Below are positions 20,607 through 40,827 of a stretch of 64,000 bases of DNA, one piece after another. Source of the stretch: Rhizophagus irregularis (taxonomy: Eukaryota > Glomeromycota > Glomeromycetes > Glomerales > Glomeraceae); the NCBI RefSeq assembly GCF_026210795.1, contig NC_089441.1, positions 558,001-622,000 of the forward strand. The letters are read 5' to 3'. The notes under the pieces are model-generated. The model did no database searches and was not told the DNA's origin. It was given only the letters and a program-made list of their open reading frames with translations. The position numbers and the translations under genes are program-made. Position 1 is the stretch's first letter; the number at the start of each line of letters is the position of its first letter.

Positions 20607-22271
20607 TTGACAACAAAGGATAATCTTTCCTATTGTATGAACAATAGAAATCTCCTGAAACGCCACGATCAGTTACACCGGATATACCCTAATATTCTCC
20701 TATTTGAATTAGCAGACGATTCTTGTTGTATTTGTCATCCCGTTCTCACAATACCAGACCGATATTTCCTACGATTTTGGAACTGGTATTCATTAGAGAT
20801 TCCCACGTTATCTTATTCTGCAAAAACAGTCCAATATTTCTACGAATATAGCCAAGGAACGGTATTAAGACAGCAATATCTTATACGAAAATTAATATCA
20901 AGTATTAGATATCAAAACGCCTCGTTATCTTACGACCGTTTAGCCATCAAGATATATACCGCTCGTGAAAGGTTTCAGAACTTCAACCTTGACCCTTTTG
21001 TTTGTTATCAGCACGAAGACGAACCATTAGGATACGAGTTGTCTTTTATAACACCACCGACCTCTCCGATATTACGATATCCCAGAAATTTTCTTTTTAT
21101 TAACGAACCGTTATACCTAGAATACCTGTTTGACGACGAAAATATGTCGAATCTTCAGAATAATCAAGGTCAAGGACAGCCTCCTAACCGATTCAACCAA
21201 GCTCCTCAAGTCAACCAAGCAGATATACAAGCCTTGACAGCAGCCGTACAGGCCTTGACAGGACAAATGTTAGCGCCTAATAATCTCGGAAACGCAATGA
21301 ACACGTTAAACGCAACGGTAGCCGCGAATAACAATGCTTTACAAAACCGAAACCATAACGTTGCGCAAGTACCGACGTTTAACGGAGGAAACCAAGATCC
21401 AATCACCTGGTTAAACGAGTTTAATGCAACTGCGACGGCTAATGGATGGAACGACGCACGAAAACTACAAGTTGTCCCCGCTTATTTAAAAGGACCAGCT
21501 GCCGTTTGGTATCAAGCAGCGGTATTGGCGCCTATTAAAGCTTGGGCAGCAGCAGCCAACGTTAACAACTTCGAACATGCCTTCCTTACTCGGTTCTGAA
21601 CTGCGGCTATGGTAGAGATGTGGGCGACTGAGTTAGATCAGAGACAGCAACAACCGAACGAAAGCGTGGATGAGTATGCCTCGTCTATCCAGGAACTATA
21701 TCAACGAGTTAACGATGCCGCCTTCGCCTACCCCGATAATTTACAAGCTCGGAAATTTGTTTCTGGATTGCAACCTGAGCTCTATATGGCGGTAAAGCCC
21801 TTTGGGGATCAAACGTTAGCGGATGCAATAGGAAGAGCCAAGGGCTGTGAACTCACCTTACGATCAGGAAAAACTAAGTTATTGAACTATACCGGTCAAA
21901 CTACGTCTGAAATCACCGAACTCACTAAATTGGTCGCAGCTCTAACTGAGCAAATCACAGAAATCGGAAAGAAGGTTACAGGAAATCGACCGCCACCACG
22001 AAGTGATAGTAGAAATCCGAATGTTCCTTCGGGACCAAATCGAACGATTGTTTGTTATACGTGTGGAGAAGCTGGGCATGTGAGTCGAAGGTGTCCGAAT
22101 AACGCAACAAACACCAGCGTTACAAATCCAGTAATTGCACCTGTTGTAACAACTACACCACCTACTTCAGCCACTAATGATACTCAGAGTTTAGTACAAG
22201 AATTACTGAAACAGTTGAATTCCGCGAGTAATACGACCACCACTAATGGTCAACAATCGTCTTTAAACTAA
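20607..22271 (+). pseudogene. gag: gag of the outer Gypsy element (broken)
   Basis: Two open stretches (20607-21599 and 21609-22271) carry Gag features. Near the N-terminus DDSCCICHPVLTIPDRYFL gives a CxxCHP signature that is also present in the inner element's Gag. In the middle, VPTFNGGNQDPITWLNEF and ESVDEYASSIQELYQRV match the helical retrotransposon Gag core. CYTCGEAGHVSRRCPNN is a CCHC zinc knuckle. A Gln/Asn-rich region sits ahead of the core and a Thr/Asn-rich tail follows the knuckle. The product would form the particle and bind RNA. The copy is broken. Confidence 0.85.
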
Positions 22272-22369
22272 GTGGTGCATCTGCGGGAGGTGTAGATGCG
22301 AAACCTGATAAATCCTCTATATCATTAAATACCTTATTCGAAGCTTATCCTGCCCAACGAAGGAGTCAA

Positions 22370-23698
22370 ATGAGAAGAGCCGAACCATATTCTAGACCAG
22401 TCGTTTCAGAAGAAGAGGAATCGTCACAACCTCTTGATATTCCGACTGCTCCAATTGATATACCAAAAACAGTTGAACCAATGATAGTTACCGAAACGGC
22501 GGAAACATCATCCAAAGCTATTGAACGAACTACCGTTAATATAGCCGCGAAGAAAAAGAAAGCTCCGGTAGTTAAGAAGAAAAAGAAGATGAATCTTCAG
22601 CCCTTGATATCACTACATGTACCACCTTATTCGATGGTAGACGACATCAAGAATCAACAAGCTCGTATCACATTCGGACAATTATTGGAAGTTGCGCCGA
22701 AGTGTCGTTCAGAACTGATACGAGGAATACGAAAACCCACGGTTCGAAAGATGAATCTCGGTGAACAGGAAACAGAAGATACGGCCACTGCATTGTATTG
22801 TGATGCAACGGTGAAAGGAACTGAGATCCTGTTGATTATCGATAGTGGTGCCGCCGGAAGTATTGTGTCATGTCAATTATTAAAAGACCTTAAGATCCCT
22901 ATCGATAGGCCATCGACCACCATGATGATTAATGTGAATGGTGAACGAAAACGACCGTTAGGAGAAGTGTTGAATTTCCCCATCACCATTCAAGATATTA
23001 CTGTTCCAATTAACGTAGTAGTAACTGAAGCCGAATCTTATGCTGCAATTGTTGGAAATGATTGGTTAAGTAAAGTCAGGGCTAACATCGACTACGAATC
23101 GTCTACCATGAACCTCACTTGGAATAAGCGGACCATCGGAGTGCCAGTTGAATATCGGCTCATGCCTCAAGAGAAAAGGAAGCTACAAGGCCTTATTGAT
23201 TCAAGCAGTCCACCGAAAGAAGACGATGATGGATCGGAAAAAGAAGATACCGACGAAGAGGAAACTGATGATGACTCCATTAAAGAAGAAGAGGAGGAGT
23301 TTGAAGACGATGAGCCTGAAGAACGAGTGTTCTTCACTATGCAGTTTGAAAAACCTAGACGTCCGACGCGTATTCGGTATCGCAATAATAAAAAGAAAGC
23401 TGAAGTTCGGAAGCGAGATCCACTTCCAGAATCTTCAGTAATATTAGACTGCAAGTTTGCTAACGTTGTTATAGACGCCATATATCCATGTGAAGATTTT
23501 GTGTTAACCAACGAAGGGATTTACCTTGGTAAATGTTTCCATACGTGGGGACATCTTCAACATTTGAATCAAAAGTTCAAGACGACGCCTCCTAAGAAAG
23601 CAACTTGGGTATATGATTGGAAAGGGCCGAAAGCTAAATGTTGGTGTCGAAATTCATTATACTCCCCGGTGTCACCCCCGTCTGCCACCCGGCGGTAA
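22370..23698 (+). pseudogene. Protease region of the outer Gypsy element (cut by the inner element)
   Basis: LLIIDSGAAGSIVSCQLLKD (about residues 155-174 of this frame) is a retropepsin active site with DSG, and YAAIVGNDWLSKVRANIDY supplies the downstream G.DWL motif. Before it lies a Lys-rich segment (KKKKAPVVKKKKK) and after it a very acidic linker. At 23670 the sequence turns into the LTR of the inner element, so the last residues of this frame are not native. Coding sequence of the outer element resumes at 36806. Confidence 0.82.
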
Positions 23699-25044
23699 AC
23701 AAAGTTCCCTGCTTCTGTTATATGTGCTCCACGAAACATTAATATTCTTGCTTGGTTTAGTTTTATTACTACTTAACTTTCAAATTGCGATAGCTCTCGC
23801 CACGATATTTCATCCATTATCTTCTTTCAAAATACGATAGTTCTCTTTACAAAAGTTTATATTTTATTCATTTCATAATTCTCGTTATGACATTAAATTC
23901 ACCATGAATTTGTCCAATTAAAATTAATTAAGCGAACATTACAGTAAAGTTTAGGGCGAACCTATTACCTTTAAAATAACATTACGCTTTACTAACAATT
24001 AATTAAACAAAATTACTTTTTCATCATAAGAAAATAGTAACAAAAACAATCGAAACAATTAATTTTCATATAAAGGGTATTTTATTTATTCTTCATAAAA
24101 TTCACAATTAACTAATTTACTTAAAGTTTTACATCGTATCTGACGACTGTGGAATTCACTTCCCATTCCGCTCCTATTTAAACCAACTTTCTTATTCTTT
24201 CTTTTCCTACTTCTTATTTCTTTCTAATATTTTATATGTTATCTTTTATGCGCTATCTTATATGCTATTTTATATGTTATCTTTTCTAATATGTTATACT
24301 ATTTTAATACGCTATCTTTTCTTTAAAATAATCTTTCGCATGTTATGTTGTAAAGATATAATCCATCTTTTGTGGCCGTGCTATCTTTTCTTTAAAATAA
24401 AATAATCTTTCAAATATTATATCGTAAAGATCCATCTTTTGTGGCTGTGCTATCTTTTCTTTAAAATAAAGTAATCTTTCAAATATTATATCATAAAGAT
24501 CCATCTTTTGTGGCTGTGCTATCTTTTCTTTAAAATAAAATAATCTTTCAAATATTATATTGTAAAGATCCATCTTTTGTGGCTGTGCTATCTTTTCTTT
24601 AAAATAAAGTAATCTTTCAAATATTATATCGCAAAGATCCATCTTTTGTGGCTGTGCTATCTTTTCTACTGCATCTCGTCAACTATTCTTCTACTGCGGC
24701 TGCAGTTCATCAATATTTTACATGTTCCTATTTTTTTGTTCCTTTAATTCGCTATCCTTCCTTTTTATATGATTTACCATTTGTGGCTTATGATTACTCC
24801 TCCTAATTGCTCTTATTGTTGAACTTGATAAACTGGTTGCTAAGCCACATCGATCAACTCCCCACTTGATCTATTGGTTCTCCGTTAATCATTTAATAAA
24901 CATTACATCATGTAGATCATTCCTTCTCCTAAAAGTTTATCCTTTCCGGTTAATTTTATCCTATCATGTGACTTCCTATCGTTTAATCTTTTATTCCATA
25001 TTATTCCTCCATATTATGCGATTACTCCAGTATCTATGGCTACA
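23670..25044 (-). repeat. 3' LTR of the inner Gypsy element (minus orientation)
   Basis: 1375 bp, near-identical to 35431-36805. It contains the 69-bp tandem repeat at 24343-24642. Confidence 0.93.
24343..24642 (-). repeat. 69-bp tandem repeat within the LTR, open in the sense direction
   Basis: Four units of 69 bp, each a multiple of three and open on the element's sense strand. They read as repeats of MDLYDIIFERLLYFKEKI followed by AQPQK. The same array is in the other LTR at 36104-36403. A repeated enhancer-like U3 segment is the simpler reading. Translation is possible but unproven. Confidence 0.75.
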
Positions 25045-25060
25045 GTTTGCCCCCCACCTA
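25045..25060 (-). promoter_or_regulatory. Polypurine tract of the inner Gypsy element
   Basis: On the minus strand AGGTGGGGGGCAAAC directly abuts the LTR start (TGTAGCC). This is the expected primer site for plus-strand DNA synthesis. Confidence 0.75.
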
Positions 25061-25074
25061 AAATTTGAGTCCCA

Positions 25075-26262
25075 TCAAATTCGAACTATTACTTCAAAAT
25101 TTGTCCTATCAATATATTCTTTCAGTAATTCACCATTTACTGGTGTTTTCAATATCTTCCCTTCCATAGTTTTAATTCTGTATGATCCTTTAGAAATTAT
25201 CTCATGTACATAATAAGGTCCTTTCCATTTTTCTTCTAACTTTCCAGACCATTGTTTCTCTTTTGCTGCATCATAATATAGTACTTTATCTCCGATTTGT
25301 AATTTCTGCTTTATTCTATTCTTTTTATCATGGTACGATTTTTGTTTTTCCTGAGATTTCCTGACATTTTCTTTAGCTTGATTCCTAATGTTTGGTAATC
25401 CTTCGATCAACCCATTAACTCTCTCTGCCATGGTAATTTCCTTATCTTCTAAATCTAATAATGTCTTCATTTGTCTCCCATATATTAAATATCCTGGTTC
25501 CATTTTCGTTGAATCATTCCTTTTAGTTCGATACGCGAACAATACTCCTGGTACTTTCAAATCCCAATCTTCGATATTACTTAGCTTTGCTAATGATTCA
25601 CATAACGTCTTGTTAAATCTTTCAATTAACCCATTAGTTTTTGGATGATAAGGCGTCGAAAAGTTATGTTTTATCTGAAATTCCTCCATTAATGATTTCA
25701 CTAATTTATTATTGAAATGACTTCCTCTATCACTCAGTATCTTCTTTGGACATCCATGCCTACATATTATATCTTCATAAATAAATCTTGCAATTTCCTT
25801 AGCGTCTGCTGTTTCCAATGCCTTTGCTTCAGGCCATTTCGTAAAATAATCCATCGCTGTAACTATATATCTATTATTTCTCTTTGTTACTGGTAATGGT
25901 CCCACTACATCAATCCCAATTTGATAAAATGGTTCTATAACTTTGATTACATTCAGTTCATGTTTTCCTATTGGTTTTCCTCTTCTCTGACAATTATTAC
26001 ATGATTTGACATAAGCTTCCACATCTTTTCTCATCCCTTTCCAATAATACCCATCCTTGATCCTATTATACGTTGCATCTATTCCAAAGTGTCCTGATAA
26101 TTCATGATCATGAGCTATGTACATTAATCCTTCAAATTCGTATTTTCTTATCACTCTTAGTCTTTTCTCATCTTTTATTTTGTAAATTGATCCTCCTATA
26201 ATTTCATATTCCCGTTCGTCATTGATATTCCTCGCTATCCTATTATATTCTTCCTCTTCCAT
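25075..26262 (-). CDS. Integrase of the inner Gypsy element
   Basis: 395 residues. A zinc-binding HHCC module opens the protein (H.…GHFGIDATYNRI … SCNNCQRRGK). The catalytic core shows Asp in IGIDVVGPLPVT, Asp in ILSDRGSHFNN and Glu in TNGLIERFNKTL, with the D,D-35-E spacing. The C-terminal part has a GPYYVHEI…GSYRI segment like the GPY/F module of Ty3/Gypsy integrases. No chromodomain follows. The frame is open throughout. It is a separate frame from RT, about 555 bp downstream of it. Confidence 0.92.
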   Translation of the reverse strand: MEEEEYNRIARNINDEREYEIIGGSIYKIKDEKRLRVIRKYEFEGLMYIAHDHELSGHFGIDATYNRIKDGYYWKGMRKDVEAYVKSCNNCQRRGKPIGKHELNVIKVIEPFYQIGIDVVGPLPVTKRNNRYIVTAMDYFTKWPEAKALETADAKEIARFIYEDIICRHGCPKKILSDRGSHFNNKLVKSLMEEFQIKHNFSTPYHPKTNGLIERFNKTLCESLAKLSNIEDWDLKVPGVLFAYRTKRNDSTKMEPGYLIYGRQMKTLLDLEDKEITMAERVNGLIEGLPNIRNQAKENVRKSQEKQKSYHDKKNRIKQKLQIGDKVLYYDAAKEKQWSGKLEEKWKGPYYVHEIISKGSYRIKTMEGKILKTPVNGELLKEYIDRTNFEVIVRI

Positions 26263-26282
26263 GTCTATGTTGTAATTCTAAA

Positions 26283-26440
26283 AGCTAAGGTGTTGTAAAA
26301 GGTTGAAATGTTATAAAGGGTTGAAGTCTTGTAAAAATTAAGGTGTTGTAAAAATTAAGGTGTTGTAAAAAAAAAAAATTAAGGTGTTGTAAAAATTAAG
26401 GTGTTGTAAAAATTAAGGTGTTGTAAAAATAAAGCGTCGT
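26283..26440 (-). repeat. 17-bp tandem repeat inside the inner Gypsy element
   Basis: About eight degenerate copies of TTAAGGTGTTGTAAAAA lie between integrase and the small frame. No coding function is visible. Confidence 0.7.
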
Positions 26441-26460
26441 GATAACTGTTCCATATATTT

Positions 26461-26802
26461 TTAATTTTTATCTCTTGATTTATTTTTGATCCTTGGTATT
26501 TCTATCCTTCTTATATATTTTTCATTCCCTATAATCAATTTAGATCGTACCCATCCCAATCCTTTTTCTATTGGTCTTTCTTCTATTATCATATTGTTTC
26601 CATCTTCCATAATTAATTTCACCTTTTTCTCTTTTAGTCTTATTATAATGTGTACATCTACTAGTATGAAGTCTTCTTCTTCTTCAATCCTTAAATGGAT
26701 AATTGTTTCGTTCTCTTCCTCTTTTATAGTCACTTTCCATATCTTATCGACCTTTACTCGATAGGTAAGAAACCAATTCATATAACAATCTCCTAATACC
26801 AT
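26461..26802 (-). CDS. Small frame of unknown function in the inner Gypsy element
   Basis: 113 residues starting MVLGDCYMNWFLTYRVKVDK. It alternates hydrophobic and charged residues (EEENETIIHLRIEEEEDFIL), suggesting a small beta-rich fold, and ends in a basic tail (RIKNKSRDKN). It lies between RT-RNase H-kinase and integrase on the same strand, where a spacer would normally be. I do not recognise it. It may be an accessory protein or an additional polyprotein segment. Confidence 0.45.
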   Translation of the reverse strand: MVLGDCYMNWFLTYRVKVDKIWKVTIKEEENETIIHLRIEEEEDFILVDVHIIIRLKEKKVKLIMEDGNNMIIEERPIEKGLGWVRSKLIIGNEKYIRRIEIPRIKNKSRDKN

Positions 26803-26817
26803 TTTGGAAATATAATT

Positions 26818-29151
26818 TTAAGCTCTTTGATGTTTTTCTATCTCCTTATATACTTTTCTCCAACTACTATCGTCATTCCTAACTTCAATTTGACTGTATC
26901 TTTTGGTATCTTTGTATACATCCTGGTTTTCTTTAAACATTTTAACCATGTCCAAATATTCATCTTTCTTTAATGTTGGGTATGACGATTTCTCCATTTT
27001 CTTCATTTCTCTTCCAATATAATTTTCCCAACATACATCGCCATCTTTTTCCAAAAATATCACTATTGATTCATCTATTGTTCCTTTTAATCTGAATATT
27101 TCTTTTTCCATCTCATGGTTCCCATGTGGAGTAATTAATCCTCTGTTGAAACTTTTCGTCTTCTGATAATAATATTCGCAATATGGCGATTTGTCTAGAA
27201 TTATTATATCCGTATCTTCATCATATTCTAATATTCTTCTGTTTATTTGTTCTACTACTTCCTTTCTAAATTTCCATTCTGTTTCTAATTTTGATTCGTG
27301 AAATTCACCTTTGTCTTTTCTTCTCCTTTTGAATGTATTAAATCTTACTTTTAATCCTTGCTTTTCCCACTCTTTAATCAAATTTTGTACTATACTTGTT
27401 TTTCCTAATCCATCCACTCCGTCGATTATAATAACTTGTGGCTTATTTTCTCTTCCCAATTTCTTTAATAATTCTTTTTCTGTCCTTTCCTCCAAATTCA
27501 AAAGTATTGCTTCTTTATCGGTAAAATATTTTTCATCATTCCATCTCCCTTTAAATCTTTTAGCATTATACCATTTATTCCTAAATTTGATATATCTCAA
27601 TTTCCCCTTATTACTTTCTATTTTTGTTATTTCTTGATTCTCGTTCCTTTCTGTTTCTTTTTCTTTAAATCTCAGTCTTGATAATCCATCTGCATTTTTA
27701 ATTTTCTTTCCACTTCTATGTACTATTTTAAAATCAAATTGTTGTAATTTCATTACCCATCTTGCTCTCCTTCCCGTTTGTTCCTTTCCATCTGTTAATC
27801 CTTTTAATGCTGCGTGATCTGTTATCACTATAAATTTCCTTCCCACTAAGTATTTCTGAAAATGTTGTATTCCCCAAAATACCGCTAAGCATTCCAATTC
27901 TGTTGGTGGATAATTCTTCTCTGCTCCAACTGTACTCCTACTTGCGTAAGCTATTACAACCTCTTTATTTTCTTCATTCATTTGAGCTAACACTGCTCCT
28001 AATCCTATCTTAGATCCATCAGTTATCAATATAAATTCTCTGCTGAAATCCGGATATACTAAAATTGGATTTTCTGTCAATTTTGTCCTTAATACGTCAA
28101 ATGCTTCTTGTTGTTCTTCTTTCCATTCAAACTTTTCGTTCTTTCTTGTTAAGTTAAGCAAAGGTTTTGCTATCTTCGAAAAACCTTTTATAAATCTCCT
28201 ATAATATGAACATAATCCTAAAAATGATCTTACTTCTGTGACAGTTTTCGGCCTCCTCATATTTTCTATTTTCTCAACTTTCTCTTTATCTGGTTGCAAT
28301 CCATCTCTTCCTACTATATGCCCTAAGAAATTTATATTTCTCAATCCAAACTGACATTTCTTCAATTTCACAATCATATTATTCTCTCTCAATTTACTCA
28401 ATACTTTATCTACATGTTCTATATGTTCCTCAAAATCTTCTGAATAAATCATTATATCATCTAAATACACTGTAACAAATTCTCCTATATATTCTTTTAA
28501 TATTTTATCCATTAATCTCTGAAATGTTCCTGGTGCGTTCTTCAATCCAAATGGCATAACATTGTATTCATATAATCCTTGTGAACAAATGAATGCTGTT
28601 TTCTCTTTATCTTCTTCTGCCATTTCTACTTGATGATATCCTGCTGCTAAATCCAAACTTGTGAACCAACTTCCCTTTCTAAATTTTTCTAACAATTCGT
28701 CTATCCGGGGTAAAGGATATTCATCTGATTTTGTCACATTATTTAGCTTTCTATAATCTATACAAAATCTATAATTTCCAGTTTTCTTTCCTGCTAACGT
28801 TACTGGAGATGCCCAATTACTCCATGATTCTCTTATCTTTCCCATCTTTAACAATTGTTCAATTTCTTTCTTTATAAACTTTCCTTTTTCATCAGTTTCT
28901 TTATATCTCTTTTGTGCTATTGGTCCTTGATTTTCTTCAATTATTATTTCATGTTTAACTGTATTTATCCTTCCCAGTTTCTCTTCGTCATATTCGAATA
29001 TATCTTCATATTCCCTTATCAATTTTTTAAATGCTATTCTCTCCTCATCGTTCATTTCTCCCAGATGTGTTTTCTTTTCAAATTTTTCTTCTTTGCTCTC
29101 ATTTAGCATCTTTACCGTCTCTCCTTCATTCAGAAAGCCAAGACCATTCAT
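26818..29151 (-). CDS. pol: RT-RNase H of the inner Gypsy element fused to a thymidylate-kinase-like domain
   Basis: 777 residues. Reverse transcriptase lies at about 60-300, with WASPVTLAGKKTGNYRFCID, MPFGLKNAPGTFQRLMD and the catalytic VYLDDIMIYS (about 228). RNase H lies at about 365-500 (LITDGSKIGLGAVLAQ, TELECLAVFWGIQHF, ITDHAALKGL). After a basic linker, residues about 570-777 contain VIIIDGVDGLGKTSIVQNLI, a P-loop of thymidylate-kinase type (compare the family's EG.DG.GKST). Further on, IIILDKSPYCEYYYQKT stands where DR…SS.AYQ occurs, and ESIVIFLEKD fits the later core strand. This suggests phosphorylation of a nucleotide, a dNTP-supply role comparable to retroviral dUTPase. The start overlaps the protease stop by 4 bp. 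Confidence 0.88.
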   Translation of the reverse strand: MNGLGFLNEGETVKMLNESKEEKFEKKTHLGEMNDEERIAFKKLIREYEDIFEYDEEKLGRINTVKHEIIIEENQGPIAQKRYKETDEKGKFIKKEIEQLLKMGKIRESWSNWASPVTLAGKKTGNYRFCIDYRKLNNVTKSDEYPLPRIDELLEKFRKGSWFTSLDLAAGYHQVEMAEEDKEKTAFICSQGLYEYNVMPFGLKNAPGTFQRLMDKILKEYIGEFVTVYLDDIMIYSEDFEEHIEHVDKVLSKLRENNMIVKLKKCQFGLRNINFLGHIVGRDGLQPDKEKVEKIENMRRPKTVTEVRSFLGLCSYYRRFIKGFSKIAKPLLNLTRKNEKFEWKEEQQEAFDVLRTKLTENPILVYPDFSREFILITDGSKIGLGAVLAQMNEENKEVVIAYASRSTVGAEKNYPPTELECLAVFWGIQHFQKYLVGRKFIVITDHAALKGLTDGKEQTGRRARWVMKLQQFDFKIVHRSGKKIKNADGLSRLRFKEKETERNENQEITKIESNKGKLRYIKFRNKWYNAKRFKGRWNDEKYFTDKEAILLNLEERTEKELLKKLGRENKPQVIIIDGVDGLGKTSIVQNLIKEWEKQGLKVRFNTFKRRRKDKGEFHESKLETEWKFRKEVVEQINRRILEYDEDTDIIILDKSPYCEYYYQKTKSFNRGLITPHGNHEMEKEIFRLKGTIDESIVIFLEKDGDVCWENYIGREMKKMEKSSYPTLKKDEYLDMVKMFKENQDVYKDTKRYSQIEVRNDDSSWRKVYKEIEKHQRA

Positions 29152-29669
29152 TTTTCCTCATCCCTCTTTTCTCTATCAGTTTTTACAATCGATAACAACT
29201 CTTCTTTTTCCATCTCCTCATATTCATCTTCACTCTCTGACTCTTCACTAGAATTGCCATCTATATCATCTATATCCTTTGGATCTCCATTAAATTCACC
29301 CCTATTCCCTGACTCCTCAAATTCAACATTTTTCTTTCCTCTAAAATCAATTGGTATTTCATATATTCCATTATCCCATTCTATTGTTAACAGACCTTCT
29401 TTCATATTTATTATCCCATATCTTAATAAATCAGTTCCTAATATTAAATCTTTTCTTCTCGAGTCGATTACTTCGAACTCCAAAGGTATTTCTAAATTTT
29501 CGTCAATTTCTATTCTAATTTCCACTCTTCCTAATGAAGCTATGTTATTTCCATCTGCTATTGTTAATACGACATTACTTTCCTTCGTTATTGGTATATT
29601 TAATTCTTTTCTCAGCTCATTCGTTATTACTGAAGGTCCTGCTCCTGTATCAACTAATGCTCTAATCAT
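29148..29669 (-). CDS. Aspartic protease of the inner Gypsy element
   Basis: 173 residues. MIRALVDTGAGPSVITNELR has the DTG active site, and DLILGTDLLRYGIINM the ILG.D.L motif of retropepsins. The C-terminal third is very acidic (EESESEDEYEEMEKEE). The coding sense probably begins upstream of this Met, because the preceding codons also have coding character. Its end overlaps the RT frame in an ATGA junction, which would allow stop-and-restart translation. Confidence 0.88.
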   Translation of the reverse strand: MIRALVDTGAGPSVITNELRKELNIPITKESNVVLTIADGNNIASLGRVEIRIEIDENLEIPLEFEVIDSRRKDLILGTDLLRYGIINMKEGLLTIEWDNGIYEIPIDFRGKKNVEFEESGNRGEFNGDPKDIDDIDGNSSEESESEDEYEEMEKEELLSIVKTDREKRDEEK

Positions 29670-29753
29670 TTTTCCTTCAATTATTATATTACATCTTGTT
29701 GCTTGTGATTTTTCTTCTTTCTGATTAATATTCTTTAATTCCCCCGAGTGTAG

Positions 29754-32700
29754 TCAATATCTCAAACCATTTAATAACTTCTTCCTTACTTCTGGTCTCT
29801 CATTCATCATTTGTTCCCAATTAATTGGTACGCTTGAATTTACAAATTGCTCAAAAGGATCAAAATCTCCAACATTTGGTATATTTCGATTTAACTTCAC
29901 TTTCTCGTTTGTACATTCTCTAGCAAAATGTCCTTGTTGTCCACAATTGTGACACCTATTATTATTCTTTCTAGTTTCATATCCTTTCTGTAATTGTTCT
30001 TTTGTAAAACCCCTCTTATTATTCTCCTGTGCTTTTTGCTGTTGTCCTTGCCATTGTGCATTTCTCCTTCTATCTCTTTCATCGTTCATAACCTTGTCTT
30101 TATTTCTTTCACTCTTTCTAGGTGGTACTGGGAACATATCATATCTCTCCTCATCTTCATAGTTATTCACTTCGTATCCATCGAATCCATTATTATAGTT
30201 ATCATATCCACCACCCTCATTATATCCATCATATTCATCATTATATTCCATATTATACACATTATATCCTTTACCATAATATTCTTCATCAAGGTAATTA
30301 ACTTGATTATTTTGGCTATATGACCCTTTATTATTTCCTCCATATGATCTTCTTTGACCTTCCCTACAAACTCTAGAAGTATGTCCTTTTCTTCCACATG
30401 TATAGCAAGTCATTCTATCCCAGTTCATATTATTTCTTTGGACATTATTATTTCCGATCGGTCTCCTATCATTCCTATTCCTTTGCATTACATACGCTTC
30501 ATTTCTTTGCATTACATGTGCTTCCAACCTTTTTATTCCATCAATTAACTCATCCCATTCCTCACTTTTAACTTCTTTTTTTTGTAATTCTTTCGCAATT
30601 GGATTCATTCCTTTGTATTCATTTGTCTCTTCTTTCAAAATTTCTTCCATGTTTTTCTCTTGTCCTACTCGTTTCATATCTAATCCCGTTGTTTTCATTA
30701 ACAACTCATCCTTCGCTTCCTCTTCTCTTTTTGCTTCGTTAACTGCATCATTCAGATTCGTCGGATTACTTCTCCTAACATGATAACCTAGCATGGCATC
30801 TAACCCTTGAATAAAATAATTCACTTGATATAAATCATCTAACGCATGACCTCTAGTTGCAACTCTTAATATTGACCTAAATCTCCTAGTATATTCTTCA
30901 ACACTTTCATTTGTTCCCTGTTTAACTCTTGTTAATTCCAACATTTTTCTTCTTTGAACATCATTCCTAGTAAATCTGTCGATTAATCTTCTTTTTAAAT
31001 TCCTGTCCTCATTATGGTCACACCAATTCACTAAATTAGCTGCTACCTTTTCTTTTTCCTCATTATACCATTGTAATGCAATTCCTCTTAAACAAGTTAT
31101 AGCTATGTTTGCCTTATTTTGTCTACATACACCTCCTCCAACATTTCCTTCTGGTCGTCCACTTACTGTAAATGCTATCTCAAATTGTCTAATCCAATCA
31201 TTAATATCTTCATCCTCTTTTCCACTAAAAGTTGGCATACCTACTATTCCTCCCATTCCTGCAGTCTGAATCCTATCCGCCAAAGTCTGTCCTGCTCCTA
31301 ACGCATTATCTAATGCATTTGGTGCCAATCCCATAGCATTCTCCATTATTCTTCTTATTTGTGCTTCATTTGCCATATTTACTATATTCTCTTGAAATAA
31401 TTCTTGTAAATTGTAATCAGATATTTCACTTTCTGTGTCAGAATTTTTAAAATTTAATGAACTATTCGAATCTGAATTTTGATTCAGACCAAAACCTCCT
31501 GTATTTATAACATTTTCGATTTCATTTTCAGATTCTTCTTCTTCAAAATCTTCATCACTTCCGTCCCATATTTCATCCGGACTTAATATTTCTCCAATCT
31601 TTTCTGAATTATCCGTATTGTCTTCTTCTGATTCTTCATTATCACTCTTTTCACCACTTTCTTCACTATCCATTACTCCTGCTTGTTCTTTCAACAACTT
31701 ATCTAACTTTTTCTTCAATTCTTTTTCCGACTCATTCTTATTTTCTTGAAAGATTTCAATGAATTCTTTATCTAAAATTTCTCCATCTGTATATCCCATA
31801 CTAGTTAATCTTAACAATTCTTCTTCAGTTATCATTGTTCCAATATCTTCAAAAATCTTTTGCAATCTTTTTACCCGATCATCAATTTCATCAATATCTT
31901 CTTCCTCACAATCTTTGCATATAGTTCCTTCTAATCTAAACATATCATTCATCCATCTTATTTCGCATCTTTCGCACCAAGTTGTATTCTCATTTAACCA
32001 CTTATGAATCTCTTTTCTTAACTCTCTATCTTCTAATTCTATTATTCCCATATACCTTTCTATGAATTCTTCTGTTACCATTATTCGATTATTAACTCCA
32101 AAATTCTTTATTCTTTGAATTTCCGATACATCCATTTCGTATCCTAATTTTTCTAAGTTGTTTTTTAGTTCTATTAATTCATCTTGTTCATCTTCCCGTA
32201 TTTCCCGATTACATTCTTCACATCTGCCGTCCTCTTCCGATATCACATAATCTAATTTCTGTTTATTGCATCTACCACATATTTTTGTACTCAAATCTAT
32301 CCACTCCTTTATGTCTTCAGACTTATCAAATTTCCCCTCCTGAAAAATATAATATCTTATAAAATCATATGTCAACAGTACTCCCGTCTCTATCTTTTCT
32401 TTTATTCCAAATTTCATTATTTCTCTGATGAATTCTTCTTTTGGATTTACCATCAGTTGTCTTAATCCTGTCCTTATTTCACTTAACTTCCACGTTTTAT
32501 CTTCTACTATTATTTCTATTTCTTCTTCAGAATCATACATTTCATTATCTTCTCCTTGCTTTATCTCCACTAACTTGAATTTTTGTGTTCTTTCCATTGT
32601 TTCTTTTAAGTCTGTTACAACCCATTCTATTACACCATCATCTATTCTCAATATGATAGGATTTCTTGTATATATATCTTCGCTATCTTTAAATGTCATA

Positions 32701-33671
32701 CTATCCATTAGTTTTCTTACAGTATCTTCTTGCAAATTTTCTCCCTCAGATAACATCTTCTCGAACCATTCTGGTGAATCATTTTCATGATATGTATGTA
32801 TTTGTCTACCTTCATATTTGTCATTCCACCAGTACCTAAATCTTTCAAATCTAAGATATAAACTCGTGTTAAAATTCTTTTTCATTTCGTAACTTTCTAA
32901 ACTATCTTCGCTTTCTGAATCTTCTGGTTCTTTTATAAAGCCCCTAGTATCTATAAATATTCTTATTATCTTTTGTACCATATTCCTGTGATATTCGTGA
33001 ACATTTTCTATGTCTATATTCCCATATTCCATATTGGACATTAATTCTTTTACTTTCTCCTCATTCGTAGCTATTCCTTCTTCTTCATAAAGTAATTCCC
33101 TGAATGTCTTTATTGCTCCCATCTTTACCCGTAATGGTTTAACTTCTTTCGATGTGATCTTGTACCATTGCCAAAATTTTTCAAACCTTCTTTCAACATC
33201 CCAATCTTCCAAAATATATTTGTGTTCTATTAATTCAGGATTCCCAATTAATCTATCAAATACTTCATTCCCTAAATCTCCTTCAATACAATCTCTTACA
33301 ATTACTAATATAATTGTTCGTAATCCTTTTTCTTTCATTTTTGGTTGTATTCTATATCTTATCGACTCTGTTATTCTATCCATTATGTCTCTACATTTTC
33401 CCTTGTGTATTGTATCTTCTCTTTCTGAATTATCCATACTTAATAAATCTATTACTCCCTTGATCGTTACATTATTATATATTATTATTGTATCTTCGAA
33501 CTTAAATAATGCATCCCAAAATTTCTTGAATACCATTGGTTCATTTCCTATCGGATGACATAATTCACAATTTAAACATTCATCTAATTCTCCCGTTCTT
33601 AACTCATGTTCTCCTTTATGTGTCCTATATTCACTTTCCCATTGATGGTACCATTCCATCGTATACTCCAA
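29754..33671 (-). CDS. gag: Very large Gag of the inner Gypsy element
   Basis: 1305 residues, two to three times the usual Gag length. The Gag core is at about 810-960 (MPTFSGKEDEDINDWIRQFE, NESVEEYTRRFRSIL). Two zinc knuckles follow, CYTCGRKGHTSRVC (about 1090) and CHNCGQQGHFAREC (about 1245), separated by a Tyr/Asn/Gly-rich stretch. The 800-residue N-terminal extension carries ECLNCELCHPIG at about 33-44, then paired CxxC modules (CGRCNKQ…CEEC, about 463-485; CERCEIR…CKDC, about 567-590) and a highly acidic region. The CxxCHP start is shared with the outer element's Gag. The extension is of unknown function. Confidence 0.88.
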   Translation of the reverse strand: MEYTMEWYHQWESEYRTHKGEHELRTGELDECLNCELCHPIGNEPMVFKKFWDALFKFEDTIIIYNNVTIKGVIDLLSMDNSEREDTIHKGKCRDIMDRITESIRYRIQPKMKEKGLRTIILVIVRDCIEGDLGNEVFDRLIGNPELIEHKYILEDWDVERRFEKFWQWYKITSKEVKPLRVKMGAIKTFRELLYEEEGIATNEEKVKELMSNMEYGNIDIENVHEYHRNMVQKIIRIFIDTRGFIKEPEDSESEDSLESYEMKKNFNTSLYLRFERFRYWWNDKYEGRQIHTYHENDSPEWFEKMLSEGENLQEDTVRKLMDSMTFKDSEDIYTRNPIILRIDDGVIEWVVTDLKETMERTQKFKLVEIKQGEDNEMYDSEEEIEIIVEDKTWKLSEIRTGLRQLMVNPKEEFIREIMKFGIKEKIETGVLLTYDFIRYYIFQEGKFDKSEDIKEWIDLSTKICGRCNKQKLDYVISEEDGRCEECNREIREDEQDELIELKNNLEKLGYEMDVSEIQRIKNFGVNNRIMVTEEFIERYMGIIELEDRELRKEIHKWLNENTTWCERCEIRWMNDMFRLEGTICKDCEEEDIDEIDDRVKRLQKIFEDIGTMITEEELLRLTSMGYTDGEILDKEFIEIFQENKNESEKELKKKLDKLLKEQAGVMDSEESGEKSDNEESEEDNTDNSEKIGEILSPDEIWDGSDEDFEEEESENEIENVINTGGFGLNQNSDSNSSLNFKNSDTESEISDYNLQELFQENIVNMANEAQIRRIMENAMGLAPNALDNALGAGQTLADRIQTAGMGGIVGMPTFSGKEDEDINDWIRQFEIAFTVSGRPEGNVGGGVCRQNKANIAITCLRGIALQWYNEEKEKVAANLVNWCDHNEDRNLKRRLIDRFTRNDVQRRKMLELTRVKQGTNESVEEYTRRFRSILRVATRGHALDDLYQVNYFIQGLDAMLGYHVRRSNPTNLNDAVNEAKREEEAKDELLMKTTGLDMKRVGQEKNMEEILKEETNEYKGMNPIAKELQKKEVKSEEWDELIDGIKRLEAHVMQRNEAYVMQRNRNDRRPIGNNNVQRNNMNWDRMTCYTCGRKGHTSRVCREGQRRSYGGNNKGSYSQNNQVNYLDEEYYGKGYNVYNMEYNDEYDGYNEGGGYDNYNNGFDGYEVNNYEDEERYDMFPVPPRKSERNKDKVMNDERDRRRNAQWQGQQQKAQENNKRGFTKEQLQKGYETRKNNNRCHNCGQQGHFARECTNEKVKLNRNIPNVGDFDPFEQFVNSSVPINWEQMMNERPEVRKKLLNGLRY

Positions 33672-34310
33672 TTAAATTATTATAAATATTCATCCAGAAT
33701 TCAAATTGAAATTCCACTCTCTTATATATCATTTTTATCGCTTCTATTTTGATCTTCTAACCATCCTTTACTATATTGTCCTTTCCTATTACCTATATTG
33801 AATGTATAATCTTTCTTTCATTATGAATATTCATTTAACAACTTATTTTTTTTTCTAAATCTTTTACTTATTCATAATATTCTTATATTAATCTTTCAAT
33901 CTTTAAATCCTCTCTTTTTTTTTTTGATTTTCACAAGTTTCTTCTGCTATTCTTATCTTTCATAATTTCATGTATATATTTTACTGCGCCATTAATTCAA
34001 AAATTATTCTAAGTCCACAATCTCCTCAGACTGCGGAGGTTTTTACTGCGCATTCTAAAAATTTCAAAAATTTTCTAAGTTTTTACTGCGCCTCAAAATT
34101 TTCTCTTATCATCAAAATTTATAATTTTCGCATTTCACGAATTTCAAAATTCTCATAACTTCTAAAGTTCGTGAATTTTTAGTTCTTTTTCGTTATATAT
34201 ATGTAATCTTTACATCTATATATTCAATATTACGCAAAATATCTTCTTTGTTTAATCTTGTACTAATTCTTATTATAACCATTATGTCGACACACAACAT
34301 ATTATACTTT

Positions 34311-34402
34311 ATGCGACACACGCATTTACACTTATGCGACACACGCATTTACACTTATGCGACACACGCATTTACACTTATGCGACACACGCATTTACAC
34401 TT
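34311..34402. repeat. Four perfect 23-bp tandem repeats
   Basis: ATGCGACACACGCATTTACA plus CTT, repeated four times without spacers. Each unit contains GCGACACACGC, a small imperfect inverted repeat. Confidence 0.85.
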
Positions 34403-35410
34403 ATTTAACGGTGTTTCTTCTTATTTATTATCTTTTACAATTTAATAACCTATACTCGGCTTGCCTTTACCTTCACAATGAAGTATAGTAGTTTCGAGGT
34501 TTGCTATTCACATTTTATCATTTGACCAGCAAATATTCCTAAATTTCGCATTATTCCATAATATTCATCTTCTTTTCGTGAGTTCAATTGCGCATTTCCC
34601 TAAATGCTTTCAGTTTCATCTGAAGAAGTTATACTCACGATGGTTTCTCTTTTTGCCTTGTGAATTCAATTACGCATTTTCAAAATGCTTTCAGTAGGGA
34701 GATGTTCCACTCACGTCTGAGTCCAATTATTTCAATTCCCATCTGAAGAAGTTATATTCACAGCCGGTGTTTTTGTAATAGGTTCTCACGTAACCCTTGT
34801 GTTTTAAATAGGTTCCCACGCAACCCTTGTGTTTTGGTAATAGGTTCCCACGTAACCCTTGAGTTTATAGCTTACTCGTCAACTTTTCGTTACAACATTG
34901 TATCCCCAGGAACTTCTGGCATCTGCAAAATACAATGGTGCCCCTCCCAGAATACCACATCTTACGAGGGCTTCCTTAATTTCTTGGTTTTACAATTATT
35001 AGCGCGAAAACTTCAAAGACGACAACTTTTGTGACTTACTACAATACTTTCCGGATTTTCCTGTAATAAATCTATTATTTTGAAACGAGTTCATTATATT
35101 CCATCATATCACCGCATCCTTCTTTTTATAATTCCTAAGGTAGGTGTACAATATCGCTATTTTTGCCCGTTTCTATTTTAAAGTTTTTCAGGTACTTACA
35201 ACCTTTTTCCCCAATATTATATTTTAATTCTAATACCTCTTTTCTGAGTTCAGATTCTTCGGAATACCACGTCGGTACCATGATCAGAACGATCCTTCCC
35301 TTCGCGAGTGATCAATTCACTTAGTTGTTGACCGTTTCCTTCTTAATACCGCATAGGTACTTGACTATATGAAGATAGTCAAAATGTCGACGTAAAGTCA
35401 ACATTTCCTT

Positions 35411-35427
35411 TCTCGGAGCATGCACCA
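35411..35427 (-). promoter_or_regulatory. Primer-binding site of the inner Gypsy element
   Basis: On the minus strand TGGTGCATGCTCCGAGA starts three bases after the LTR end (GGTGACA). It shares TGGTGC with the outer element's site, so the two may use related primer tRNAs. Confidence 0.65.
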
Positions 35428-35430
35428 AAT

Positions 35431-36805
35431 TGTCACCCCCGTCTGCCACCCGGCGGTAAACAAAGTTCCCTGCTTCTGTTATATGTGCTCCACGAAACAT
35501 TAATATTCTTGCTTGGTTTAGTTTTATTACTACTTAACTTTCAAATTGCGATAGCTCTCGCCACGATATTTCATCCATTATCTTCTTTCAAAATACGATA
35601 GTTCTCTTTACAAAAGTTTATATTTTATTCATTTCATAATTCTCGTTATGACATTAAATTCACCATGAATTTGTCCAATTAAAATTAATTAAGCGAACAT
35701 TACAGTAAAGTTTAGGGCGAACCTATTACCTTTAAAATAACATTACGCTTTACTAACAATTAATTAAACAAAATTACTTTTTCATCATAAGAAAATAGTA
35801 ACAAAAACAATCGAAACAATTAATTTTCATATAAAGGGTATTTTATTTATTCTTCATAAAATTCACAATTAACTAATTTACTTAAAGTTTTACATCGTAT
35901 CTGACGACTGTGGAATTCACTTCCCATTCCGCTCCTATTTAAACCAACTTTCTTATTCTTTCTTTTCCTACTTCTTATTTCTTTCTAATATTTTATATGT
36001 TATCTTTTATGCGCTATCTTATATGCTATTTTATATGTTATCTTTTCTAATATGTTATACTATTTTAATACGCTATCTTTTCTTTAAAATAATCTTTCGC
36101 ATATTATGTTGTAAAGATATAATCCATCTTTTGTGGCCGTGCTATCTTTTCTTTAAAATAAAATAATCTTTCAAATATTATATCGTAAAGATCCATCTTT
36201 TGTGGCTGTGCTATCTTTTCTTTAAAATAAAGTAATCTTTCAAATATTATATCATAAAGATCCATCTTTTGTGGCTGTGCTATCTTTTCTTTAAAATAAA
36301 ATAATCTTTCAAATATTATATTGTAAAGATCCATCTTTTGTGGCTGTGCTATCTTTTCTTTAAAATAAAGTAATCTTTCAAATATTATATCGCAAAGATC
36401 CATCTTTTGTGGCTGTGCTATCTTTTCTACTGCATCTCGTCAACTATTCTTCTACTGCGGCTGCAGTTCATCAATATTTTACATGTTCCTATTTTTTTGT
36501 TCCTTTAATTCGCTATCCTTCCTTTTTATATGATTTACCATTTGTGGCTTATGATTACTCCTCCTAATTGCTCTTATTGTTGAACTTGATAAACTGGTTG
36601 CTAAGCCACATCGATCAACTCCCCACTTGATCTATTGGTTCTCCGTTAATCATTTAATAAACATTACATCATGTAGATCATTCCTTCTCCTAAAAGTTTA
36701 TCCTTTCCGGTTAATTTTATCCTATCATGTGACTTCCTATCGTTTAATCTTTTATTCCATATTATTCCTCCATATTATGCGATTACTCCAGTATCTATGG
36801 CTACA
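35431..36805 (-). repeat. 5' LTR of the inner Gypsy element (minus orientation)
   Basis: 1375 bp, near-identical to 23670-25044. Followed on the plus strand by CCGG, the duplicated target. Confidence 0.93.
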
Positions 36806-38533
36806 CCGGAAGACGCCTGTTATTTCTGCCAAGATGATTTAATAACCTATCAATCAGTATGCCGACTCTCATCAACCATTCTAAAAGAATTGAGTAGAGG
36901 ACGATGTGATGATGGAGTTGTACCTTCCGAGGAACAACGAAAATTTGCATTAACCAATCAACTTTATAATCAGTTAGTCTTGGAGAAGGTTGCCGCTGAA
37001 AATGACCGACAGTTATGCTATCACTGTGGACAGAAGACGCATTTGGAGTATGAGCGATTATCCAAGGAAGTCGAATATTATCATGTAGAAGTAGGATCCG
37101 GAATTGAGACTACCCCTACTACCATTAAGATGAAAGTCGGAACTCTTCCTACTGATTTAGAATTACCATTACTTCGATTTCTTGTTCAACGTCGTGGTAA
37201 TTTTGCATGGAGTTCTTCTGAGTTAGGTCGAACTAATTTAATCCGACACTCCATCGATACCGGTAACAATAAGGTGGTACGAAAACATTAGTATCGCACG
37301 TCCAAAAATGAGCGGAATTTCATTGAGGAAGAAATTCAACGTATGTTACAAGAGGGACTAATTGAAAGATCAACAGGTCCATGGGCCGCTCCGGTAGTCC
37401 TAGTTCGGAAGAAAAACGGAAAGCTGCATTTTTGTGTTGATTACCGAGAATTGAATAACGTTACGATAAAAGATGCCTATCCTCTTCCCAGGATAGATGA
37501 CATGCTCGACTCATTTGGAAAAGCTCAATGGTTTACATCCCTGGATTTAGCCAGTGGATATCGGCAAGTAGAGATGAACCCCGCAGATAGACCCAAAACT
37601 GCTTTTATTACTCAATTCGGCACTTACCAGTTCAAAGTAATGCCGTTCGGCTTATGTAACGCTCCGGCCACATTTCAGCGTCTGATGGATGAAGTCTTAC
37701 GAGGTTACCTTTGGAAATTTGTAATGGTATATTTAGACGATGTTATCATCTATTCGGATACCTTTGAACAACACCTAGAACATCTTCGAGTTATTTTTGA
37801 TCGATTGGAAGATGCTGGCTTAAAGTTAAATCCCGATAAATGCTCGTTTGTAAAAGAAGAGCTGGAGTTCTTGGGACATATCGTTAGCAACAAAGGGATA
37901 AGGACCGACCCTGCTAAGATACAGAAAGTAAAAGATTTTCCAGTACCGTTGAATGTCACCCAATTACGAGGTTTTCTTGGGCTTGCTTCTTATTATCGAC
38001 GATTTGTGCCTGGATTTTCTCGTATTGCAACACCCTTAAATAAGCTATTGAAGAAAGGAGTTGCATATAGTTGGGGTAAAGAACAGCAAGTTGCGTTTGA
38101 ACAGTTGAAACAGACCTTGATCGCCTCACCTATCCTCATCTTTTCTGATTTTGAAAAACAGTTCGTATTATTAACGGATGCTTCGACCTTTGGGTTGGGC
38201 GCGATATTATCTCAATTGGATGAAGATGGGAATGATCGTGTAATCGCGTACGCTAGTCGTACATGTAATAAGGCAGAGAGTAATTATTCGGCAACTGAAT
38301 TGGAATGTCTTGCCGTAATATGGGTAGTAAAACATTTCCACGCGTATATCTATGGGCAACGATTCAAATTAGTCACTGACCATGCAGCGTTATGTCATTT
38401 ATTTAATACGGCTACCCCTATCGGAAGATTGGCCCGTTGGGTCATGAAGCTCCAAATGTATGATTTTGAAACTACACATCGCTCCGGAAGGAAGCACCTC
38501 AACGTTGATAGCCTATCTAGGATAAGAATCTAG
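36806..38533 (+). pseudogene. pol: RT-RNase H region of the outer Gypsy element (broken)
   Basis: The outer element resumes here. The first part (to about 37290) has an unusual Cys-containing segment (EDACYFCQDDLITYQSVC, then LCYHCGQKTH) that could bind zinc and has no counterpart in the inner element. From 37343 an open stretch of 396 residues holds reverse transcriptase (WAAPVVLVRKKNGKLHFCVD, MPFGLCNAPATFQRLMDEVL, MVYLDDVIIYSD) and RNase H (LLTDASTFGLGAILSQ, LVTDHAALCHLF). The copy is broken, in keeping with the inner insertion. Confidence 0.88.
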
Positions 38534-38599
38534 ATATATACCTAAATCATCTTTTTACCATTCTCCATTATTACCGACGCCGATTTTTGGATTATTTTT

Positions 38600-39910
38600 T
38601 TGATTTCAACCCAACCTATGGATTTCACCACATATTTTAACATTTTACGCTATTTGGAAACCTTAGAATTGCCTGATAATATTGATGCTGACCAACGCCG
38701 TGCTTTTAAACGAAAGGCCCATTATTATGTTTCGATAGATGGCCTATTGTATAAAAAGAATAAGGAAAGCCCTACTCGACCTTTACGTGTATTAAAGAAA
38801 AGTGAACTGGCCACTGTGTTATATAATTTTCACGAAGATCCACTTGCAGGACATTTTGGGTTTTCCAAAACCTATCGTGCTATTAGTTTACGATATTTTT
38901 GGCCACAGATGGGAAACGATATTAGAAGTTATGTCCAATCGTGTGATATATGTCAACGACGAAAAAGACCATTAAGAAATGAGCCTCTTCACCCTATAAA
39001 GATCGGACAACCCTTCGACCGTGTTGGGATGGATATTGTTGGCCCGTTACCTATTACCACTCGTGGAAATAAGTATATTGTTGTATTAACCGAATACTTA
39101 ACGAAGTGGCCCGAAGCTCGAGCATTACCAGATGCCAAGGCCGCGTCTGTTGTTTCTTTCTTTTATGAGGACGTTATTTGTAGACATGGATGTCCGAAAG
39201 TTCTTTTGACTGACCAAGGGACACATTTCGTAAACGAACTTTTAGATTTGTTATGTACTCGACTAGGTGTTAAACATCACTTATCAACCGCATATCGACC
39301 ACAAACTAACGGGTTGACCGAACGATTCAATCGAACATTATGTGAGACTTTAGCAAAATATTCTATGGAGGATCAATCGAATTGGGACCTATATTTGCCT
39401 TCTGCGTTGTTTGCATATAGAACCATCCGACAACAAACCACCCGATTTGAACCCTTCTACCTTACTTACGGAAGGGAAGCAACTTTGCCGATTGAATTGA
39501 AATTGCCTAGTGATCCTACTGTTATCAGATCAGATGTTCAACAAGACCAACAAGTTGAAGATTTTCAGGAACAGTTTTACCAAAGGATTCGGATGTTGAT
39601 AGGACCCTTAGAGGACAATCGTCAGTTAGCTAGAAGTAATGTGCATACTAGTCAAGAGAAACAAAAGCAACGATATGATGCTCAAATTCATCCTAAACAA
39701 TACGCTATTGGAGAACAAGTATTGTTGAAGAATTTCCGACCGAAGAAGCTGGATACGAAGTGGAATGGACCTTATTATGTGCATGATCGTCGTAACAATG
39801 GAAATTATCAATTACAAACAATCGATGGGAAAATTCGTAAGAAGTGGGTGCATGCCGACCAACTTCGTCCTTATATCAGTAGATCATTGGAGATGTCGGA
39901 TATCGGATAA
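38600..39910 (+). CDS. Integrase of the outer Gypsy element
   Basis: 436 residues. The zinc module has H…GHFGFSKTYRAI and SCDICQRRKRP. The catalytic core has Asp in VGMDIVGPLPITT, Asp in LLTDQGTHFVNEL and Glu in TNGLTERFNRTL, the D,D-35-E set. A GPYYVHDRRNNGNYQLQ segment near the end is the GPY/F-like module. The frame is open throughout. It is about 50% similar by eye to the inner element's integrase in core motifs, which makes the two elements relatives rather than copies. Confidence 0.9.
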   Translation: MISTQPMDFTTYFNILRYLETLELPDNIDADQRRAFKRKAHYYVSIDGLLYKKNKESPTRPLRVLKKSELATVLYNFHEDPLAGHFGFSKTYRAISLRYFWPQMGNDIRSYVQSCDICQRRKRPLRNEPLHPIKIGQPFDRVGMDIVGPLPITTRGNKYIVVLTEYLTKWPEARALPDAKAASVVSFFYEDVICRHGCPKVLLTDQGTHFVNELLDLLCTRLGVKHHLSTAYRPQTNGLTERFNRTLCETLAKYSMEDQSNWDLYLPSALFAYRTIRQQTTRFEPFYLTYGREATLPIELKLPSDPTVIRSDVQQDQQVEDFQEQFYQRIRMLIGPLEDNRQLARSNVHTSQEKQKQRYDAQIHPKQYAIGEQVLLKNFRPKKLDTKWNGPYYVHDRRNNGNYQLQTIDGKIRKKWVHADQLRPYISRSLEMSDIG

Positions 39911-39948
39911 TATTCGATAGTGTTCTCGTTCGCAGGAGCTCACGTTTC

Positions 39949-39960
39949 AAGAGGGGATGA
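39949..39960 (+). promoter_or_regulatory. Polypurine tract of the outer Gypsy element
   Basis: AAGAGGGGATGA directly abuts the 3' LTR. Confidence 0.7.
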
Positions 39961-40827
39961 TGTTACGCGAATTTTTGCGCATGTGATTTCCGATATTATA
40001 TGGTGATCCGATGAAATTCGGTACATTTGTGTACATGTCGATTTCCGGTGTTATGAGACGATTTACGCCGATATATGATTTGTGTATATCGGTTAACTAT
40101 ATTAAAGATATTGATTTTGTTTGATAGATTTACTTATATATCGTTTTTATAGTTATTTTATTTTATTTAGATAATTTATTTATATTATTTATTTTCTTTA
40201 TTTGTATTGTTTATATATAAGATTTTATTAGAAGTTATTGTAGGGAAATTAGCTCAATAGTAATTAACCGTCTAAAATTATCATTTGTACTTTATTAAAA
40301 ATGGCTTATAATCGTATTGTAATTGTATTGATATATTACGAAATCAATAACCCATCAATAGACATCTATAGATTAGATTTTGCCTTGATGACAGGAAAAA
40401 GAGATGACGGTTAGATAAAATAAGATATAAATACACCTTCCGCCAACTCTTTGATAGAGTAGTTACCATATAGCTATTTTTCTGTAGTTATTTTGTCGTT
40501 AAATATCTTTAAGATATATTTCCTATCCCTTTCTGTCACTTTTTATCACTTTGTTGTAAAGATCCGAATTTACACCTGTTTAATAAAATCGTTATATTTG
40601 GTCAATATTACACGTTGTTTCTAACAGTCATATAACAGTTGTTGTTATAACCATTGCGTATTTTCATTTATCGTATTTATAGTGTTTACCTTGACGATTC
40701 TTAACGAACAATACCGGAAGTACCTTGGATAGGTAGTATTGAGTAAGAATTTTGTTGGTATTCGTGTAGTTATACGATATAAGTCATCCGCCATTCGTCC
40801 CTTAATTACCGTCATTATTCGGTAACA
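39961..40827 (+). repeat. 3' LTR of the outer Gypsy element
   Basis: 867 bp, two differences from 19681-20547. Followed by CTAC, which matches the four bases before the 5' LTR. Confidence 0.92.

Follow-up and report, generated by a model that had tools for sequence, protein, structure and literature searches.

A thymidylate/deoxynucleoside-kinase-like P-loop domain between RNase H and integrase in Ty3/gypsy retrotransposons of Rhizophagus irregularis

In the 64,000-nt stretch of Rhizophagus irregularis DNA analyzed here (the window; NC_089441.1 positions 558,001-622,000, with coordinates given in window numbering), a complete Ty3/gypsy retrotransposon on the minus strand carries an intact P-loop kinase-like domain between its RNase H (RH) and its integrase (IN), and the domain is present in at least four element families. 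On balance, we lean toward the interpretation that Ty3/gypsy elements of glomeromycotan fungi captured into their Pol a P-loop kinase with the fold of thymidylate and deoxynucleoside kinases, which is under selection, has passed between families as a cassette, and would support the supply of dNTPs for reverse transcription.

The ends of the element (LTRs running from TG to CA, with a 4-bp target site duplication, or TSD) and its order of protease (PR), reverse transcriptase (RT), RH, and IN, with the kinase between the last two, are those of a Ty3/gypsy retrotransposon (Table 1). The original prediction, made from the window's sequence, described a P-loop domain of about 205 residues behind RH, lying in an open frame continuous with RT and RH in a copy with almost identical LTRs. 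These features hold up on closer inspection, as the peptides it quoted occur in order within 207 residues, the frame stays open over its full length, and the LTRs differ at one of 1375 positions. Its coordinates, 26818..27440, were otherwise exact but included the stop codon and ended one base short of the first domain codon. Upstream of the kinase-like domain, the 779-aa frame matches RVT_1 at residues 124-282 and RH models at 345-474. The conserved start of the IN frame suggests that it has its own AUG.

Table 1. Features of the kinase-bearing element in window coordinates.
Feature	Position	Strand	Remarks
5' LTR, 1375 bp	35431..36805	-	contains a 69-bp tandem repeat in six register copies
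3' LTR, 1375 bp	23670..25044	-	1 mismatch relative to 5' LTR
TSD CCGG, left copy	23666..23669		
TSD CCGG, right copy	36806..36809		
Gag frame, 1305 aa	29754..33671	-	N-terminal extension followed by Retrotrans_gag at residues 856-958 and by CCHC knuckles
Aspartic protease frame, 201 aa	29148..29753	-	
RT-RNase H-linker-kinase open frame, 779 aa	26818..29157	-	TAA stop at 26818-26820
Kinase-like domain, 207 residues (573-779 of frame)	26821..27441	-	
RNase H-kinase linker	27442..27669	-	upper limit approximate, after NADGLSRL at the end of RNase H
118-aa frame	26461..26817	-	immediately behind the kinase stop, same frame
Short tandem repeats, mostly 17-base spacing	26304..26450		between 118-aa frame and integrase
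Integrase frame, 400 aa (H2C2, rve)	25075..26277	-	conserved start MEE[DE].Y

Several other properties of this element deserve mention. The 69-bp repeats (24223-24805 and 35984-36566), with six register copies per LTR, show the same identity pattern in both LTRs, and the 17-base repeats just ahead of the IN start read TTAAGGTGTTGTAAAAA on the plus strand. Some 760 residues with paired CxxC motifs (31392-33671) precede the usual Gag domain; this extension has no Pfam family, and relatives of it are found by tblastn in most other kinase-bearing loci read. The 118-aa frame is matched 25 times genome-wide, 21 times at full length and 18 of these without a stop, with one 54% relative at C4:2360541; it has no Pfam family above that family's cut-off, and its predicted model is all-beta with low confidence (pLDDT 52.8). 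The window copy itself interrupts the pol of a second Ty3/gypsy element, which runs the opposite way (20900-23669 and 36806-40000, plus strand) and whose two flanks give one open frame across the insertion site. RT and IN of this host element are 47% and 43% identical to those of the kinase-bearing element, and tblastn gives no kinase match between its RH and IN matches, which lie 207 bases apart.

The domain is widespread in the genome searched (146.7 Mb, 32 contigs), with at least 151 matches, so that absence from all other copies was not seen. Copy counts are lower bounds based on 150 listed matches, some of which are two halves of one place; 135 of the 150 have no stop inside the match and 130 extend over at least 560 nt. 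Identities to the window domain fall into groups of 94-100% (21 matches), 83-88%, 62-66%, and 55-59%, plus stragglers, and 17 of the 21 closest matches lie in a 779-aa frame, one of the 17 with a TGA inside the match. A chance or pseudogene origin is ruled out by copy number, open frames, and dN/dS. The domain also keeps its place. Among the 112 nearest RT places, set against the 150 kinase places, 111 are followed by a kinase on the same strand within 1.5 kb, and the single exception (C13:673449) has one about 15 kb away; this comparison scored 111 of 344 candidates, namely RTs of at least about 64% identity, and one element contributes two of the places as separate pieces. The order RH, kinase, IN was found by tblastn at 19 of 20 further loci read. 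One of the 19 (L029) matched the RT-RH query in its last 34 residues alone, and the remaining locus (L043) retains RT-RH together with a broken kinase and shows no IN match. The kinase forms the end of the RT-RH frame in families A (that of the window), B, and C, followed by a stop and then by IN, apparently with its own MEE[DE].Y start. In family D, the RT-RH frame has 493 aa and the kinase opens a separate frame, of 600 aa in most copies, that runs into IN.

The original prediction read this domain as thymidylate-kinase-like. That reading holds for the predicted fold, shared by thymidylate kinases (TMPKs) and deoxynucleoside kinases (dNKs), while TMPK identity is not proven by the sequence. 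The domain contains the P-loop GVDGLGKT, LDKSPYCEYYYQ, and RE.KK in a lid-like region. Searched alone against Pfam, it ranks Thymidylate_kin (PF02223, EC 2.7.4.9) first (E 3.4e-5, profile positions 1-169 of 185), at 24.0-24.3 bits against a cut-off of 27, while some public homologues carry PF02223 in their precomputed annotation. It resembles TMPKs in predicted fold, length, the P-loop GxDGxGK[ST], and a [SC]..YYQ stretch reminiscent of their S..AYQ, and it differs in its sub-cut-off score, in having DK instead of DR, in its slight likeness beyond the P-loop, and in being part of a polyprotein. TMPKs are marked by a DR motif following strand 3, and its Arg is present in the wild-type TMPKs compared; at D83-K84 of the retroelement domain, Lys takes its place in 16 of 16 aligned sequences. 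In the same alignment, a selection that omits the public protein P0076 and others, G8, D10, G13, and K14 of the P-loop are present in all 16 sequences and G11 in 14. When P0076 is included, in an alignment of 23, the P-loop Asp and Lys columns are nearly invariant, P0076 having Asn and Glu at these positions.

Beyond the P-loop, similarity to known families fades. For residues 46-207 alone, Pfam gives no family in the window copy, and hhalign probabilities are 2.9% against a set of five TMPKs and 7.3% against three dNKs. Thus, most of the sequence signal comes from the P-loop. In a search with the whole polyprotein, FtsY (5.7e-5) and NB-ARC (9.8e-4) even rank above thymidylate kinase; we rejected FtsY, NACHT, and NB-ARC as identities because their matches are weak and confined to roughly the first 60 domain residues, the P-loop end. 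The phage profile phrog_761, with the P-loop part excluded, gave 0.001 and 0.011 for two of three members and was not among the listed matches of the third. Because it also matches the genome's dNK-like gene and all 14 control genomes, this profile names a superfamily and not a substrate, and a phage origin inferred from it was discarded.

Structure prediction bears out a nucleotide kinase fold in place of an unrelated P-loop family. The best AlphaFold2 model of the domain (pLDDT 87; the other four of five are poorer, at 62-72) has a predicted thymidylate/deoxynucleoside kinase fold, and its best 50 Foldseek and best 50 VIA-align matches are TMPK, dNK, adenylate kinase, AbmG, and, in two rows, a designed ATPase, with 10-18% Foldseek identity to solved TMPKs and dNKs. 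By this model, the dNKs (PF01712; dCK, dGK, Drosophila dNK, Giardia dAK) fit equally well, and the domain may instead salvage deoxynucleosides to monophosphates and not phosphorylate dTMP. The PF01712 match is near full-length but weak (E 0.0083, 16.3 bits, cut-off 27). E-x(4)-W after strand 2 is a dNK motif; the domain has a conserved EW pair at residues 55-56, which may or may not be its structural equivalent. On the other side, the retroelement domain has the P-loop Asp, and its full-sequence profile match is weaker to dNK than to TMPK. We regard the salvage role as unlikely, though it deserves consideration.

A second alternative is that the domain is another acceptor kinase of the nucleoside monophosphate (NMP) kinase fold, acting for instance on nucleic acid 5' ends in cDNA end processing or integration. 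The kinase-IN fusion in family D and the nearly invariant FKRRR motif would suit such a role. KTI12 is matched by 7 of 11 members (best 1.5e-5), and P0153, a metagenomic homologue, weakly matches a phage polynucleotide kinase profile (E 0.0016); profile matches to polynucleotide 5'-kinases are weak throughout. The top structural matches listed above are of other kinds, and P0153 carries a NUDIX domain, a fusion that points to nucleotides. We judge the 5'-end role improbable.

The strength of selection bears on whether the domain is an enzyme at all. Between families A and B, six pairs gave kinase dN/dS of 0.10-0.11 at dS 0.59-0.72 (Nei-Gojobori, codons with gaps or stops skipped). Other between-family pairs (dN/dS 0.11-0.23) have high dS and are only indicative, four of them without a finite dS, and among the within-family pairs two recent ones of family A gave 0.56 (few changes) and 0.17. 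These codon comparisons demonstrate purifying selection on the kinase domain. A non-enzymatic Pol module, which binds nucleotides or serves multimerization, Pol packaging, or nucleotide sensing, could account for the Lys in the DR position, the placement between RH and IN, and the loss of P-loop Asp and Lys in at least one public copy (P0076). Yet all 16 aligned sequences retain the P-loop Lys as well as the conserved acidic and basic residues, which pseudo-enzymes usually lose, and the low A-B dN/dS also speaks against this explanation, to which we give little credence.

The domain has evidently moved between element families, as judged from identities and trees. The window element and locus L048 are 91-100% identical in RT-RH and linker and 84-100% in IN, with only 60-78% in the kinase; against family B (L025), the values are 57-78% in RT-RH and linker, 76-92% in the kinase, and 53-71% in IN. 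An RT tree groups the window element with L048 and L049 (100/100), an arrangement that the kinase data reject (AU p 8.4e-6); in the kinase tree, it is family B that joins the window element (100/99), a grouping rejected in turn by the RT data (AU p 1.06e-5). The trees comprise 18 loci, each represented by its best tblastn piece with X at stops, and the AU groups were picked after the identity patterns and the RT comparison were known. Since RT, linker, and IN agree with one another, it is most simply the window-type kinase that was exchanged, as a unit.

LTR elements are known to acquire host sequence, and the kinase might thus be a neutral hitchhiker amplified along with its element. This scenario is already contradicted, as far as these comparisons go, by the dN/dS values and the tree conflict, and also by the occurrence in at least four families, an exchange by recombination that left the frame intact, and relatives under three further species names. 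Passive capture therefore seems highly improbable.

Searches of 5.8 billion proteins place the domain in a narrow set of named organisms: R. irregularis, with homologues up to 99% identical, R. clarus, R. diaphanus, and Glomus cerebriforme, all remaining matches among those listed being without an organism name. Beyond these relatives, matches drop sharply, from E 4.4e-7 to 0.35 in one search and from 1.4e-5 to 0.11 in another. Labels on single proteins, "thymidylate kinase" (jgi) and "Thymidylate kinase-like domain" (uniref), seem to stem from automatic annotation; the domain is thus already partly visible in databases. An R. clarus protein (P0031) joins RH, kinase, and IN in one predicted chain. 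Free ORFs of 251-267 aa with a Met start occur among the metagenome proteins, and their first 40-50 residues resemble the kinase-side part of the linker between RH and kinase in families A and C. In P0153 (393 aa), the NUDIX domain (residues 58-143, 24.8 bits, cut-off 21.1) lies ahead of a 44%-identical kinase; among the matches listed for this protein, none covers the NUDIX part, and the one that reaches into it, starting at residue 114, is broken by six stops. A kinase tree built from 25 sequences, in which 5 of the 22 inner branches are starred, shows the free forms mingled with those fused to RH or to IN.

As to a near source within the genome, PF02223 finds four places, which are two host genes (one on C13 in two exon pieces, one on C24) and a locus (L023) that overlaps a degraded copy of the retroelement kinase. 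Neither host gene is among the 150 listed domain matches, so the genome's own TMPK was set aside as a near source. Elsewhere in the genome, an open frame of 336 aa holds a sequence of dNK type (G000:C28:1224011-1224604; PF01712, 112.4 bits). A tblastn search of phages with the domain gave no E below 0.5, and short-pattern searches, which reach near relatives only, yielded 59 stretches in viral contigs and 54 in genome contigs, none confirmed.

Returning to the captured kinase that we favor, the domain would act as an enzyme that phosphorylates (deoxy)nucleoside monophosphates, with dTMP or a wider range of dNMPs as its most likely substrates, and would be packaged alongside RT as part of the Pol proteins. 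Together with host NDP kinase, it could raise local dTTP or dNTP levels, so that reverse transcription of the element could proceed in hyphae or spores even when their nuclei are outside S phase. The sense strands of the window element and seven other kinase-bearing elements are 43-46% A and 8.5-11.3% C in the stretches read (43.4% and 9.2% at 25045-35430 of the window), compared with 30.5% and 33.0% A in two stretches read from the host element, which lacks the kinase and is the single element available for comparison. The first cDNA strand is then equally T-rich, which would make dTTP the most consumed substrate. This is consistent with a dTMP kinase without testing for one, and it may simply be the composition of the clade. 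A more far-reaching possibility, which is plausible although we would not yet wager on it, is that a deoxynucleotide kinase acts as a mobile cassette that recombines between families, switches partners (free ORF, RH, or IN), and frees reverse transcription from the host's S-phase dNTPs, matched to A-rich RNA with its high demand for dTTP. If so, it would be the first kinase of nucleotide metabolism in an LTR retrotransposon. Waiting for S phase and antagonism of SAMHD1 by Vpx are other answers to limiting dNTPs.

Host dNTP pools limit retroelements, and dUTPase is one known answer in the portions of PMC2864245 and PMC6431247 available; a nucleotide kinase inside Pol would address this limit directly. 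Through this domain, recombination between retroelement families can be followed down to the level of single domains. The domain is likewise a marker of a large and young clade of repeats in an arbuscular mycorrhizal fungus, two thirds of whose transposable elements (TEs) were reported as unclassified (PMC11075540, in part). The original prediction knew of no described Gypsy lineage with such a fusion, and in open PMC literature (most subscription papers and bioRxiv lie outside this scope) we likewise found none, nor any paper describing the domain as part of a retroelement. Thymidylate kinase was not found there together with LTR retrotransposon, or with retrotransposon, Gypsy, and Rhizophagus. 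In the available text of two R. irregularis TE papers, "thymidylate" is absent, and "kinase" occurs 10 times in PMC8647823, where the passages available deal with signaling genes that have expanded or with genes that MULEs carry, and a single time in PMC11075540.

Among retrotransposons, the closest known parallels are those that have gained other enzymes. As far as the accessible parts of PMC2864245 and PMC6431247 describe them, the dUTPase-bearing Ty3/gypsy elements of Postia, Phanerochaete, and Tuber, and Burro of planarians, likewise add a deoxynucleotide enzyme to an LTR-element pol, fungi included, at a position that depends on the family; in fungal Gypsy pol it sits at the N-terminus, at the C-terminus, or between PR and RT (PMC2864245). 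The word "kinase" is absent from the main text of both papers, as available. Their enzyme is a pyrophosphatase that removes dUTP, whereas the window element has a P-loop kinase fold between RH and IN. An orchid Ty3/gypsy lineage with an AlkB-like m6A demethylase, as presented in the available part of PMC9289625, is similarly a case of a captured functional enzyme. That enzyme is encoded by a separate ORF and concerns RNA modification, in contrast to the nucleotide kinase fold that the window element carries within Pol.
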